Shown: positions 11,162-48,476 of the stretch, in pieces
How positions within the stretch are numbered: the first letter of the stretch is position 1
Layout of the letters: every line of letters starts with the position of its first letter
Source: Phycisphaerae bacterium
Lineage (GTDB): Bacteria > Planctomycetota > Phycisphaerae > UBA1845
Direction of reading: 5' to 3'
Length of the DNA: 64,000 nt
Assembly: GCA_028289375.1 (NCBI GenBank)
Contig: JANQQK010000038.1
Coordinates: 148,110 to 212,109, forward strand
Program-made: the position numbers and the translations under genes
Notes under the pieces: model-generated
What the model was told of the DNA's origin: nothing
Database searches by the model: none
Seen by the model: the letters and a program-made list of their open reading frames with translations, nothing else

Positions 11162-11781
11162 TCGGCAGGCGGATGTTGGACTCGACGTTTCCCCCGGGCG
11201 ATGACGATGACGGCCGCGATGGCACCCAGGGTGTTGAAGACCAAGTCCCAGAGGGTGTTGTCGTATCCGCCAACGCCGGTTTCGGGGAGGATCTTCACGG
11301 CGACGAATTCGATGATCTCGTTGAGGGCGCCGACGCCCATGCCCATCAGCACGACGAGGATGGCCAGCACAAGCGTGAGGCGATGCTCATCGGCGAGGTA
11401 GGGGCGAAGCAGGTGGTGGCAGACGAGGGTTGTGGTTCCGAATCCGAAGAAGTGCACCAGTTGGTCGTAGCGCAGGACGACGGGGACGAGTTGCAGGCTG
11501 TAGAGCACGCCGTCGCCGATGCGAATGGTGCCGCCGGCCATGTGGAGGATGCCCCACAGTGTCAGACCGGCGAGGATGGTGGGGGCGAAGTTGGTGCGTT
11601 TCTGGGTTCCGATGAGCAATGCGTAGAAGGCGACGATGACGGCGGCGTAAAGGACGAATTCGTGGTTGGCGCGGGTGGCAGCCAGGCTGGTGAAGACCGT
11701 GATGTAGGTTGCGTTGACGGCGATGATGATGCGTTCGGCGCGCGTGAAGGGTCGTTGGGTTTTGCTGTCGGAACTGTTCAT
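11158..11781 (-). CDS. DUF2238 (YjdF-like) integral membrane protein
   Basis: The 207-residue protein has about six hydrophobic segments. It carries the conserved polar positions of the YjdF/DUF2238 family: 'YDQLVHFFGFG', 'GALNEIIEF' and 'YDNTLWDLVFNTLG'. The biochemical role of the family is not established. Its ATG overlaps the stop of the upstream methyltransferase gene in ATGA, so the two are probably co-translated. Confidence 0.8.
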   Translation of the reverse strand: MNSSDSKTQRPFTRAERIIIAVNATYITVFTSLAATRANHEFVLYAAVIVAFYALLIGTQKRTNFAPTILAGLTLWGILHMAGGTIRIGDGVLYSLQLVPVVLRYDQLVHFFGFGTTTLVCHHLLRPYLADEHRLTLVLAILVVLMGMGVGALNEIIEFVAVKILPETGVGGYDNTLWDLVFNTLGAIAAVIVIARGKRRVQHPPAD

Positions 11782-32069: not shown

Positions 32070-32588
32070 TCAGCGCGTCGCGGGGAACTTCTTGTCCAGG
32101 GTCGCGTTCCACTCGTCGAGTTGCGATTGATGGGCAGCCAGGAGTTCGCTCGGATCGCCCTCGATCTCGACGCGGTCCATCTTGTCACCCTGTGCCACCT
32201 TGTCGACGACATCTTGACCCGAATCGACCTTGCCAAACACCGTGTGCTTGCCATTCAGCCAATCGGTCGCCACGTGCGTCACGAAGAACTGGCTGCCGTT
32301 CGTGCCCGGACCGGCGTTGGCCATCGACAGCACGCCCGGCCCGTCATGCTTCAGACTCGGCGTGCACTCATCCTCAAACTTGTACCCCGGACCGCCCGAC
32401 CCCGTCCCCGTTGGATCACCGCCCTGAATCATGAAATCCGCAATCACGCGATGAAACGTCAGCCCGTCGTAGTAGCCGCGATTGGCCAGGTTCACGAAGT
32501 TCATCACCGTCTTCGGTGCCCCCTCGGGAAACAGCCTGATCCGAATGTCACCCTTGCCCGTCTTGATCGTCGCAAATAAATCCGCCAC
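32070..32588 (-). CDS. Peptidyl-prolyl cis-trans isomerase, cyclophilin type
   Basis: The GTG at 32588 follows AAGGAG with 6 nt spacing and leaves a compact cyclophilin domain of 172 residues; the 49 upstream codons are not expected to be translated. Motifs are '[19 protein letters not shown]' with the catalytic Arg, and 'NGSQFFVTH'. There is no signal peptide, so the enzyme should act in the cytoplasm in protein folding. A C-terminal extension of about 20 charged residues follows the domain. Confidence 0.92.
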
Positions 32589-32703
32589 CGTCAGCTCCTT
32601 CGTCCGTGTAGTCCCAGGTTGATCCCCTCCACGCACCGGCAGCATACCCGCGCGGTCGACGTCATGCCACCAACGTGCGTGCCGGACATCGAATAGAACG
32701 GCA

Positions 32704-33321
32704 TTACGGCCTTCGCCCTGCCGACTCGACCACACCGGCTGTTGCCCTGGTTGTCACGTCAGGCCACTCAAAGTCGCGCGCGTCGAAGTGGTGACCACAC
32801 TCCGGACATCGTCGTTCGGTCAGATTCAGCAGCGAATAGCCGCAGTGAAAGCAAATCGGCGGCACGCGCTCGTGCTTTTCCGTGACCCGCCTGACCCGTC
32901 TTATGATCGCGTAGGCGATGCGGCCAACGATCATATGGTAGATGCCGAGCATGCACCCGAAGACCAATCCAAGGCTCACCCGGGATGCGAGATACAACAC
33001 AAAATCAACAAGCGTCGTCGTCTGATGACTCCACCAGAACAGGAACGTTACGGCCACCGGGATGACCTCAAACCCAACTCCGAAGCCAATCCCGCAGAAG
33101 AAACAGCCACCCATCACCGCATCACGGTCCGGGTATCGCCAAACCAGAAAAATCAGCACAACGGGCATGACCAGCATGCCCACGAAGACGGCCAATGCTG
33201 CATTCCGCGTAGCCGACGGATCTATGGCAGACGCGAATCCAACGAACAGCCCCGCGAGGATTCCGGCGATCGCATAACGCCGACCCATCTCATGCTTGCC
33301 GCGACGACGTATGTACTTCAC
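32704..33321 (-). CDS. Zinc-ribbon membrane protein, fourth gene of paralogous operon
   Basis: The 205-residue protein has about four hydrophobic segments, a '[13 protein letters not shown]' loop shared with its neighbours, and a C-terminal zinc ribbon (CFHCGYSL, then [10 protein letters not shown]-x2-C-x11-C-x2-C). Its GTG start overlaps the stop of the preceding paralogue in GTGA. It does not match a family with known function. The ribbon probably lies in the cytoplasm and binds zinc, possibly to contact protein or nucleic acid. Confidence 0.75.
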
Positions 33322-33980
33322 GTGCCCTCGTCCTCACGTTCGCCGCCCGTGTTCGGCGGATTCGCCAGATCCGCCCTGCCAGCCAACCCAACAGAACAAC
33401 GCCGTTCGACCTCCTCCAGTGGCCAGGCGTACGCATTGACGTCAAACGCCATCCCACATTCCGGACAACGATCCTCCGACAACCCCAGCAACGAATATCC
33501 ACACGCCGCGCAATTCGGCACTGGCAACTGCCCCGGAGCCAACACGCGTCGAGAACGATGCACCACAAATAGCACGGTACGGCCGACAACGCACAGATAC
33601 AGGCTGAACGCCGTCCCTACGATCACAGATGCACCAATGGCCAAGCTAATCGCAGAAAGGAATGAGAATATACTCGTTAGCGTCGAGAAGTGATGCTCAA
33701 TCGCAGCGTAAACGATTATCGGTACGGCACATCCGAAACATGCACTTGGTCCTGAGAGCAAGCAACCCGCCATAACGGTCCCCGTCTCCGGATATCGCCG
33801 GATCATTGGAAAAAGCGCGACCGGCAATACCAGCAACTGAACGCACGACAACACCAGCAGCAGATTCCGCGGTTTGCCGCCCAGTATCACCCATAGAGGT
33901 GCACCCGCCCCGACAACCGCAGCGATCAGCGCATACTTCTTCAGGAGTTTTCTCGTGTTGCGATGGGGAACGAATTTCAC
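33318..33980 (-). CDS. Zinc-ribbon membrane protein, third gene of paralogous operon
   Basis: The GTG at 33980 overlaps the upstream stop in GTGA and trims a long spurious upstream frame. The 220-residue product starts with a basic stretch (HRNTRKLLKK), then has about four membrane segments with the shared 'IRRYPETGTVMAG' loop. It ends with the ribbon CAACGYSL / CPECGMAFD and a polar tail. Function is unknown. Sequence and gene order show that it is a paralogue of the genes on both sides. Confidence 0.75.
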   Translation of the reverse strand: MKFVPHRNTRKLLKKYALIAAVVGAGAPLWVILGGKPRNLLLVLSCVQLLVLPVALFPMIRRYPETGTVMAGCLLSGPSACFGCAVPIIVYAAIEHHFSTLTSIFSFLSAISLAIGASVIVGTAFSLYLCVVGRTVLFVVHRSRRVLAPGQLPVPNCAACGYSLLGLSEDRCPECGMAFDVNAYAWPLEEVERRCSVGLAGRADLANPPNTGGEREDEGT

Positions 33981-34588
33981 GGTTCTACCAACCCATTTCT
34001 CACGCTCGTGCTCTGCAAGAATGGATCGTGATCGAATGCCATACCACACTCCGGACAACGCGCTACAGTCAGATTCACAAGCGAGTAGCCACATTGGACA
34101 CACTCGGGATGACCGTCGTCCGCGAAGTCCGGAACAATGCGATATCGTTGCACAACAATCAGCGCAACCCGAGCCATGAACGCCAAGTATACACTGAAAA
34201 CCAAGCCCACAATCATGGCATAAAAGAGCGCAATTCCACCAAACCACAGAATGCTAAAGAGCCTCCAGGCACTACCCACACCAAATGGCAAGAATCGATG
34301 AACAATCAGCGGAATCGCAAAACCAGTGCACGAGCAAGGGCCACAAAGGACGGCGCCCATGATCGACGTCTCGTAATGCGGATACCGCCACACCATCACC
34401 AAAACAAAAACCGGAATCAACAACATGTCCGCGACGAGCACAAACGTGAGAAAATCCCCGACACGGCCAATACAGATCAGATACAGTGCGAAAATCGATC
34501 CGACCACACAGGACCCAATGGCGTACGCCCAGAGCTCACGCTTCGAATCGCGCGGAGCGATGACGGTGGCATGGCGTTCAGCGGTCAA
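33977..34588 (-). CDS. Zinc-ribbon membrane protein, second gene of paralogous operon
   Basis: The 203-residue protein begins at a TTG that overlaps the upstream stop in TTGA. About four membrane segments carry the loop 'VWRYPHYETSIMG' and a Cys-rich 'GAVLCGPCSCTGF'. The C-terminus is the ribbon CVQCGYSL / CPECGMAFDHD. It is the closest in layout to the third gene. Function is unknown; the tight overlaps imply that the four products are made together, perhaps in fixed ratio. Confidence 0.75.
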   Translation of the reverse strand: MTAERHATVIAPRDSKRELWAYAIGSCVVGSIFALYLICIGRVGDFLTFVLVADMLLIPVFVLVMVWRYPHYETSIMGAVLCGPCSCTGFAIPLIVHRFLPFGVGSAWRLFSILWFGGIALFYAMIVGLVFSVYLAFMARVALIVVQRYRIVPDFADDGHPECVQCGYSLVNLTVARCPECGMAFDHDPFLQSTSVRNGLVEP

Positions 34589-35109
34589 TCAACACCACCC
34601 AACATCTCTGCTTTTTCAGCGTCAAACGGCTTGCCACATTCCGGACACCGCGACACGGTCAGGTGCATCAGCGAATAGCCGCAGTACTCGCACACATTCT
34701 CATCATCCGGCTCGTCGACGCGATACGATCTGACCATCAGCATCACCAGCGACGACAACAGGAGACCCCCAACACATCGGGATGCGACGCCAAAAAACAA
34801 GAACACAACACCCATGCCTGGCTTGGTTCCCTGTAGTTGCACGACAACCTTGGGAGTGATGCTGATGATCGCCACGATGGCGTTTCCCAGATAGCAAACG
34901 CTCATCCGCGGATGGTACGCCGTCGTCATCGCAATCCCGAGAATCGCAACCCATAACGCCAGCAAATCAAGCGTTGGCCCGGGCCGCATATTTCTCACGC
35001 CCAGATAGTGGCCATACCCTTCCATCGAAGCCACAAGCACGCCCGTCACCATATACCCAGCGATCGCTCTACGCCCATACGACCTTGGAATGACTCTGGG
35101 TTCGCCCAT
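34585..35109 (-). CDS. Zinc-ribbon membrane protein, first gene of paralogous operon
   Basis: The shortest member (174 residues from the ATG at 35109; a GTG at 35112 would add one) has about four membrane segments. It shows a looser form of the shared loop ('AYHPRMSVCYLG') and the ribbon CEYCGYSL / CPECGKPFD. It heads the operon and is divergent from surE across 122 nt. Function is unknown. Confidence 0.72.
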   Translation of the reverse strand: MGEPRVIPRSYGRRAIAGYMVTGVLVASMEGYGHYLGVRNMRPGPTLDLLALWVAILGIAMTTAYHPRMSVCYLGNAIVAIISITPKVVVQLQGTKPGMGVVFLFFGVASRCVGGLLLSSLVMLMVRSYRVDEPDDENVCEYCGYSLMHLTVSRCPECGKPFDAEKAEMLGGVD

Positions 35110-41281: not shown

Positions 41282-41647
41282 TCAGGATGCGTCGTCGAGC
41301 GCACGCAGGTAACGAAAATCAAAAATCCCCGTGTCGTGCCCATCCGACCAGAACAGTTGGATGGCGTACGACCCCACGAGTTGAGCGCTGGTCAGCTTGA
41401 TGTCATCCGGCGACGTCTTCAAAATCGGCAGTAGCGAACCCGTGTCCTTCTCGCGCTCCGTGCGGCACGCAGCGCATGGGCAGTTCTTCCGCAACCGAAA
41501 TGCGGGAAACACGCTGGCTTGACCATCCTTCCACGAAACCCGCAACTCCTGCTCAACGCGCTTAAGCGCCAACGACTCAGGCGTCACCGCGTCCACCGGC
41601 AATGACTGCTGATGTGCCTTCGAAATGGGATCATGCGGCTCACTCAT
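41282..41647 (-). CDS. DUF971 domain protein
   Basis: The 121-residue protein matches the DUF971 / gamma-butyrobetaine hydroxylase N-terminal-like domain ('ELRVSWKDGQASVFPAFRLR', the cysteine pair in CPCAACRTE, 'GSYAIQLFWSDGHDTGIF'). Stand-alone copies occur widely and are linked by context to iron-sulfur and Mrp/ApbC functions; its biochemical role is unclear. Its ATG overlaps the stop of the HtrA gene by 4 nt. Confidence 0.88.
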   Translation of the reverse strand: MSEPHDPISKAHQQSLPVDAVTPESLALKRVEQELRVSWKDGQASVFPAFRLRKNCPCAACRTEREKDTGSLLPILKTSPDDIKLTSAQLVGSYAIQLFWSDGHDTGIFDFRYLRALDDAS

Positions 41648-46634: not shown

Positions 46635-47066
46635 CTACCCAGCAGAAGTCCCACACTCCGGGCAGCGATCGGTCGACGCCCGCAAGTCATATCCACAATG
46701 CGCGCAAAGACCCGCCCGAAACTGTCGGTCACGACGGAACAGCCAAATGGCAGGCAACATCGCCGCCAGCAAAGGAACCCACATCGGCAACGAAATCTGA
46801 TCCGCAGCCCCTTGCCGATCAACGAGAACAAAGCGAATCCAACTGCGTGGCCCGACAATCTCCCATCCAGACTCTTGCAGATCCAGGCCAATGATCACCG
46901 TCAGCCGCCCGCGCGAGATACTGCCGATATGATCGAAACCCCAAAGGTCAAGCGTCCAAGCCAATGAACACGACAGCGTCACGAGCGTGACACCAACGAG
47001 CAACACGCACACCGCCAACGCCACCCATTTCAACCAGGAACGACGACGTGGTAATCTCGAAGCCAT
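46635..47066 (-). CDS. Zinc-ribbon membrane protein (dispersed relative of the 33-35 kb operon)
   Basis: From ATG 47066 the protein has 143 residues with a basic start, one N-terminal membrane helix, a polar middle, a second helix (WVPLLAAMLPAIWLF) and the ribbon CAHCGYDL / CPECGTSAG. It follows the nitroreductase gene directly; a TTG at 47099 overlaps that gene's stop in TTGA and is an alternative coupled start. The function is unknown. Confidence 0.65.
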   Translation of the reverse strand: MASRLPRRRSWLKWVALAVCVLLVGVTLVTLSCSLAWTLDLWGFDHIGSISRGRLTVIIGLDLQESGWEIVGPRSWIRFVLVDRQGAADQISLPMWVPLLAAMLPAIWLFRRDRQFRAGLCAHCGYDLRASTDRCPECGTSAG

Positions 47067-47095
47067 GCTCCCGATCATACCACGACGGACAACAC

Positions 47096-47698
47096 TCAAA
47101 ACGCATTCGTCACCACAACCTCATCAAACCCCAACTGCCCCGGCTTGGGCCACGCGGGCTTCGTCCCCGTCCCGATCGCGATCATGTTCCCCATGCAATG
47201 ATCCTCCGGCAGGTTGATCAGCTCCGCCACCTTCTCGATGTCAAACCCGATCATCGGACACGACTCATACCCCAACGCCTTCGCAGCCAGCATGATCGTC
47301 TGCGACGCCATCCCGATCGATCGCTGTGCCTCATCACGCTGCAACCAATCACGCCCCTCATGGAAAGGCCCCATCCAGTTCACCAGCAGCTCCGCCACCT
47401 CCGCCGGCGCATCCTTCCAATACCGCGCAGGCTCCTTCTGCCAGGCTTTGATGTCCGCTGTCATGATGATCAGCACCGACGCCTCGGTCATCTGCGCCTG
47501 ATCATTGCCCAGCTCGCGAATCTTCTGCCGCAGCCCCTCGTCCCGCACGACAACGAATCGCCAATGCTGAATGTTGAAACTCGTCGGCGCCTGCATCGCC
47601 GCTTCGAGAATCTTCCGCAGATCCGCCTCCGGCATCTCAAATGCCGTGTCGTAATGCTTCACCGCCCGCCGCCCATAAATCGCCTCAAACGTGTCCAT
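47096..47698 (-). CDS. Nitroreductase-family flavoprotein
   Basis: The 200-residue protein has the FMN-binding pattern of the family: RRAVKHYDT near the start, 'APTSFNIQHWRFVVV', and 'LAAKALGYESCPMIGFD'. Such enzymes use NAD(P)H to reduce nitro compounds or quinones. No partner pathway is visible. Its promoter region contains repeat copies of both families. Confidence 0.92.
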   Translation of the reverse strand: MDTFEAIYGRRAVKHYDTAFEMPEADLRKILEAAMQAPTSFNIQHWRFVVVRDEGLRQKIRELGNDQAQMTEASVLIIMTADIKAWQKEPARYWKDAPAEVAELLVNWMGPFHEGRDWLQRDEAQRSIGMASQTIMLAAKALGYESCPMIGFDIEKVAELINLPEDHCMGNMIAIGTGTKPAWPKPGQLGFDEVVVTNAF

Positions 47699-47912: not shown

Positions 47913-48476
47913 TCAACGATCTTCCCGGCAAGCCAAGTCAGAAGAATCAAACGTCCGCCCACACTCAGGACACACGGACGACACGTTGCCAATCAACGAA
48001 TATCCACACCCTCTGCACACAGGAGAATTCTCGGTCTCACCCCAATCCAAACTCCGCTTGACGCGTGAATTCCCCACTTGCGTGAACGACGCAAGTGCAG
48101 CGCCAACAACCATCACGGCCATCCACCCAAACAAAGCACCCGGCATGCGGGTCATCATCCGATACGTATTGCCCGCAAACATCTTGAAGATGGGAATCAT
48201 TGCGCATGCCGTACCTGCGACAGCAGCCGCTCCGCAGACAGCCGCATGGAGCCCGGACGCGCACCGCCGCCACAATGACCCACAAAGAAACAGGAACATC
48301 AGCACGTCCAACCCGACAATGCCGTAGAAGAAGTACACCGCCGTCCAACTGTCCCGAGACCTCGGCGACCAGCCCAAAATCCACGCAGCGCCCAATATCA
48401 GCCAAGGAAGAAGAAACCCGAAGACGGCCGACAGAATTGCGAATCGAAACTGAATGGCGACGCTCCGATTGAGCAC
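47913..48476 (-). CDS. Zinc-ribbon membrane protein (dispersed relative of the 33-35 kb operon)
   Basis: The 187-residue protein has four hydrophobic segments ('FGFLLPWLILGAAWILGW', 'VGLDVLMFLFLCG', 'AAVAGTACAMIPIF', 'ALFGWMAVMVVGAALASF'). A polar linker and the ribbon CRGCGYSL / CPECGRTFD follow. Topology and ribbon match the four operon members, though the shared RYP loop is not seen. Function is unknown. It is flanked by family 1 repeats on both sides. Confidence 0.72.
   Translation of the reverse strand: MLNRSVAIQFRFAILSAVFGFLLPWLILGAAWILGWSPRSRDSWTAVYFFYGIVGLDVLMFLFLCGSLWRRCASGLHAAVCGAAAVAGTACAMIPIFKMFAGNTYRMMTRMPGALFGWMAVMVVGAALASFTQVGNSRVKRSLDWGETENSPVCRGCGYSLIGNVSSVCPECGRTFDSSDLACREDR

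Follow-up and report, generated by a model that had tools for sequence, protein, structure and literature searches.

Tandem membrane proteins with a class-wide zinc ribbon in a Phycisphaerae genome, tentatively read as an orphan immunity array

Four consecutive genes, A to D, in the stretch of Phycisphaerae DNA analysed here (64,000 nucleotides, hereafter the window) are very probably genus-restricted tandem duplicates of a small inner-membrane protein. Its ends are predicted to be cytoplasmic, and it has four helices (a simple scan finds three in A), an RYP loop and a long last helix leading into a zinc ribbon that occurs across the class. As function we tentatively propose that A to D may constitute an orphan set of tandem paralogues that confer immunity at the membrane. 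In itself the cluster is narrow; what deserves following up is how the ribbon has spread within a single class and how it is associated with RHS loci.

Organization of the gene cluster

The genes and their junctions are located as follows.

34585..35109, minus strand: gene A, ATG start, 174 aa, about three predicted membrane segments, C-terminal ribbon
33977..34588, minus strand: gene B, TTG start, 203 aa, four membrane helices in the model, C-terminal ribbon
33318..33980, minus strand: gene C, GTG start, 220 aa, RYP loop, C-terminal ribbon
32704..33321, minus strand: gene D, GTG start, 205 aa, RYP loop, four membrane segments, C-terminal ribbon
34585..34588, minus strand: A/B junction, 4-nt overlap TTGA
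33977..33980, minus strand: B/C junction, 4-nt overlap GTGA
33318..33321, minus strand: C/D junction, 4-nt overlap GTGA

All of these reading frames and junctions were found as claimed in a preliminary description of this DNA, and the tight coupling by three 4-nt overlaps on one strand and the non-ATG starts after the first gene were confirmed with them. Aligned N-termini, MK[FY][VI]xxR in both proteins, support the GTG starts of C and D. For gene B the sequence offers no alternative start codon before the first membrane helix. The products are probably coupled in translation via the overlapping stop and start codons. Two further gene pairs of the window overlap by ATGA (11778-11781 and 41644-41647), and 4-nt junctions are therefore ordinary here. 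Three of them in succession would fit a unit with overlapping stop and start codons that was duplicated in tandem.

The GC content at third codon positions (GC3) is 0.59-0.68 in A to D versus 0.78-0.84 in the flanking genes. No sigma-70-like promoters were found for A to D, although such a search is uninformative for this bacterial group. Downstream of D, a gene for a cyclophilin-type peptidyl-prolyl isomerase (window 32070-32735) is located on the same strand and could share the transcript; no such gene was seen at the surE site of the sister species.

The ribbon of A to D

The ribbons were mapped to the following positions.

34634..34692, minus strand: ribbon of A (CEYCGYSLMHLTVSRCPECG)
34044..34102, minus strand: ribbon of B (CVQCGYSLVNLTVARCPECG)
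33454..33512, minus strand: ribbon of C (CAACGYSLLGLSEDRCPECG)
32795..32853, minus strand: ribbon of D, 20 residues

All four proteins contain CxxCGYSL-x7-CPECG followed by a tail. The motif had been given as C-x2-CGYSL-x(8)-CPECG; it is present in every protein, with a spacer of seven residues and not eight. The proteins had also been said to end in the ribbon, but they extend about 10-45 residues beyond it. The first half of the motif has six matches in the window versus 0.00 in dinucleotide shuffles. Each ribbon provides the four cysteines in two CxxC knuckles that are expected of a zinc ribbon, and it presumably binds zinc.

Searches of A to D against Pfam, NCBIfam, PADLOC and PHROGs yielded nothing above a curated cut-off. 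This agrees with the earlier statement that the proteins belong to no described family, and a characterised family with an unrelated role was not matched in these four collections. Literature specifically concerned with this ribbon in planctomycetes was not found.

Paralogy and membrane topology

BLAST with masked ribbons connects B, C and D (E 9e-21 to 5e-7), whereas gene A is tied to them by alignment and profile only. It is a shortened relative lacking a true RYP loop, with AYHPR as the aligned stretch. The pairwise identity within A to D is about 22-35%. The claim of four paralogues thus holds in full for B, C and D and in this restricted form for A.

An AlphaFold2 model of B, computed from a four-sequence alignment (pLDDT 72, pTM 0.60), contains helices at residues 15-40, 46-68 and 72-99 and a long helix at 107-150, followed by the ribbon, which was modelled with low confidence. 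According to this model the RYP motif would be located in the short turn joining helices 2 and 3. A fold search with the model against the PDB gave no usable match (best E 0.86). A simple hydropathy scan indicated three segments in A and a possible fifth segment in C; the model of B suggests that the latter is part of the long last helix. From the positive charges both protein ends are predicted to be cytoplasmic, and the view of A to D as membrane proteins with predicted cytoplasmic ribbons stands.

Distribution of the membrane family

To cover the order, 114 genomes including this one were searched with a profile of B, C and D from which the ribbon had been removed. Its only matches outside this genome were a single gene of the sister species (G001:C64, L101:3091-3669) and a marginal candidate (E 6e-4). 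Within this genome a fifth relative (L033) is encoded on the same contig, at a distance of about 95 kb. No tandem run was found in the 113 other genomes. The sister species has kept the surE-ispH-CDGSH block, but no such operon lies beside it, and other SurE loci among the relatives have no ribbon within 1.5 kb. Viral contigs and plasmids contained no relatives of A to D. Judged by these collections, the run of tandem genes appears to be an accessory feature of one species. An operon conserved across the order was considered and rejected, since the 113 genomes provided one sister gene and one marginal match.

These data bear on the preliminary description, in which the four paralogues were suggested to form a multi-subunit membrane complex, that is one hetero-oligomer with a cytoplasmic zinc face. 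The single strand, the three 4-nt overlaps and the same fold in three of the four proteins would suit such a complex. However, neither gene set nor gene order is kept in any of the 113 genomes, the sister has one gene only and no such operon at its surE-ispH site, and the ribbon occurs well beyond the set. What was found comes close to scattered singletons lacking any tandem order, and we regard a complex of this kind as unlikely.

Similarly improbable is a recent acquisition of A to D as mobile cargo of unknown role. The low GC3 relative to the flanks and the lack of the operon at the site of the sister would agree with it, as would another ribbon array of this genome (L070), whose surroundings include a RusA-like gene and in our reading resemble a prophage. 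Against it stand the lack of relatives in viral contigs or plasmids and the confinement of the only relatives to the same genus; furthermore, no integrase or phage gene was noticed beside A to D in a non-systematic look.

The ribbon as a module of the class

A strict DNA pattern detected 61 copies of the ribbon in this 5-Mb genome, and 61 reading frames were recovered, a few of them possibly over-extended at the start. At least one hydrophobic segment is present in 60 of the 61 frames. The ribbon is near the C-terminus in 36 and near the N-terminus in 18 of the 61, and a crude charge rule predicts it to be cytoplasmic in 53 of 60. After masking of the ribbon, 24 proteins fell into six small families and 37 had no relative in the set (E 1e-3). 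Because the masked proteins amount to six families plus 37 singletons, the module is borne by roughly 40 unrelated proteins of this genome. The feature that had made A to D look like a special set is thus found on 61 proteins of this genome.

The consensus is CxxCGY[DNS]LxG[LN]xxxRCPECG. In a sample of the phylum the pattern was present in 5 of 149 genomes, all from the class of the window, and in 0 of about 140 genomes outside this class, where a strict pattern would miss looser ribbons. Counted relatives within the order have 3 to 32 copies each. The named matches in public genomes belong to Phycisphaerae or other planctomycete MAGs, and two are labelled only as uncultured bacterium. The ribbon is a general module, apparently confined to one bacterial class.

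Two other ribbon genes of the window had been regarded as further relatives of A to D.

46635..47099, minus strand: ribbon protein of a different two-segment family with 11 BLAST-linked members in the genome; only the ribbon is common with A to D
47913..48476, minus strand: ribbon protein, four predicted segments; outside the ribbon no relation to A to D was detected

Both were rejected as paralogues, since by ribbon-masked BLAST and hhalign only the ribbon is shared. The family of the first protein has two membrane segments around an outer domain with a W- and P-rich IPLWxP motif. It forms arrays of six, three and two genes at L041 (G000:C18:24000-33500), L070 (G000:C92:5500-10000) and L045 (G000:C25:3000-9000), and two RHS-linked proteins are distantly similar to it (hhalign 53-78%). 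At L070:1-3593 (G000:C92) three tandem ribbon genes follow the RusA-like gene in the region that in our reading resembles a prophage. Two further arrangements were seen in this genome: a five-protein array at L061 (G000:C65:7000-15000) with N-terminal ribbons, one of them degenerate, in which four proteins have about six membrane segments, and a pair of four-segment ribbon paralogues at L057 (G000:C53:1-3500) with a 4-nt overlap (803-806), unrelated to A to D outside the ribbon.

Ribbon genes downstream of RHS cores

In the relative G043 four ribbon genes in a row follow an RHS gene (L103). Counting same-strand ribbons up to 3 kb downstream of RHS cores gave seven in G036 (expected 0.21), four in G043 (0.05) and two in G001 (0.04); the opposite strand had none in these three genomes. 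As G043 had prompted the RHS idea, a held-out test was made with G038, G066 and G094, which were picked by their number of RHS cores and blind to ribbons. Seven same-strand ribbons were located within 1.5 kb downstream of an RHS core versus 0.23 expected, and again the opposite strand had none. All expected values were computed for independent, uniform placement. Because RHS genes cluster, the P values are too small; strand and side are nonetheless consistent. At 29 other RHS loci of the order a ribbon within 1.5 kb downstream was present in three, and most ribbon proteins of the relatives are encoded away from RHS genes.

The ribbon proteins at RHS loci have mostly two to five membrane segments, and their genes lie between a toxin C-terminus and the RHS core that follows. 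Six relatives have ribbon proteins in the position directly downstream of a toxin gene, which is typical of immunity genes. Among the cargo beside them are a pretoxin HINT domain and a weakly matching phospholipase-A2-like domain, and in our reading of the sequences hydrophobic glycine-rich tails suggest an action on membranes. At L119:4595-5893 (G036:C20), an RHS core with a phospholipase-A2-like C-terminus, which scores below the Pfam cut-off, precedes a four-segment ribbon protein.

A to D themselves do not occupy this position, as there is no RHS core on their contig. The three RHS cores of this genome are all on other contigs, where the ribbon pattern finds none, and 0 of its 61 ribbon genes are tied to RHS. 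Comparison of the membrane part of A to D with the RHS-linked proteins gave hhalign probabilities below 1% for the sets compared; architecture and ribbon are common to both groups, the membrane part is not.

Proposed function

We propose that A to D could represent an accessory, fast-diverging membrane immunity array without a neighbouring toxin. From its place in the inner membrane, each copy would block a toxin domain that acts on membranes and that a relative delivers, either by binding this domain or by occupying its target in the membrane. The ribbon would not be the toxin-binding part but a docking or stability tag common to the membrane proteins of the class. Like immunity arrays, A to D are tandem, divergent, patchy in distribution and lower in GC3 than their flanks; the TsaI arrays of S. 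aureus provide a precedent. The contig without an RHS core, the unrelated membrane part, the lack of any RHS tie among the 61 ribbon genes of this genome and the position of most ribbon genes of the relatives away from RHS genes argue against this function.

The four genes could also be ordinary lineage-specific duplicates, i.e. membrane proteins with a generic ribbon and a regulatory, scaffolding or metal- or redox-responsive role outside of any conflict. Tandem duplication of an overlapping stop/start unit would then have kept the junctions. This reading is quite possible; we consider it more probable than immunity, and it fits the data at least as well, without being better supported in detail. 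The 61 ribbon proteins with none near RHS genes, the roughly 40 unrelated membrane parts that carry the ribbon, the fifth relative, the single gene in the sister and the frequency of 4-nt overlaps are in line with it. Duplication alone leaves unexplained the fast divergence, the absence from relatives and the RHS link of similar proteins. We put immunity first as an explanation, since no other reading names a mechanism and has independent evidence from related proteins.

The widest form of the proposal is that Phycisphaerae mark dozens of their membrane proteins with a zinc-ribbon tag private to the class, that an unrecognised subset of these confers immunity against membrane-acting RHS toxins and that A to D are an orphan array of that kind. 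Taken as a whole we hold it to be rather doubtful. Per genome, the ribbon is attached to tens of membrane proteins unrelated to each other; it looks confined to one class and is repeatedly linked to the RHS immunity slot. If this holds, many hypothetical membrane proteins would gain a role, and an immunity repertoire that has been described as cytoplasmic with few exceptions would be extended by membrane proteins. A further question is which common partner holds the GYxL...RCPECG surface constant across unrelated proteins.

Comparison with known systems

With the double zinc ribbon families of Pfam (DZR, PF12773; DZR_2, PF18912) the ribbon shares its two CxxC(G) knuckles and their order. All of A to D score below the curated cut-offs of these families (best 22.2 versus 27.3 bits, A), and the GYxL and RCPECG residues are the signature that sets the Phycisphaerae module apart. 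The ribbon of ribosomal protein eL37 shows weak profile similarity within the ribbon (best E 0.0019); the match is limited to the cysteine knuckles, and nothing here points to ribosome or RNA binding by A to D.

The TsaI immunity arrays of S. aureus consist of 2-16 tandem copies with five predicted helices, located behind the toxin gene tspA (excerpts of PMC9484751). A to D resemble TsaI (DUF443) as tandem, divergent, small polytopic membrane paralogues. They differ in having three to four helices, no adjoining toxin gene and a zinc ribbon, a feature that does not occur in the excerpted description of TsaI (PMC9484751). In Pfam A to D had no DUF443 match at E up to 10. Nearly all known immunity proteins of RHS polymorphic toxins are called cytoplasmic and globular, with few exceptions (PMC3482391). 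In contrast, A to D are membrane-bound by prediction and located away from any RHS gene; what links them to such immunity proteins is that other ribbon membrane proteins of the order hold the immunity position behind RHS cores.
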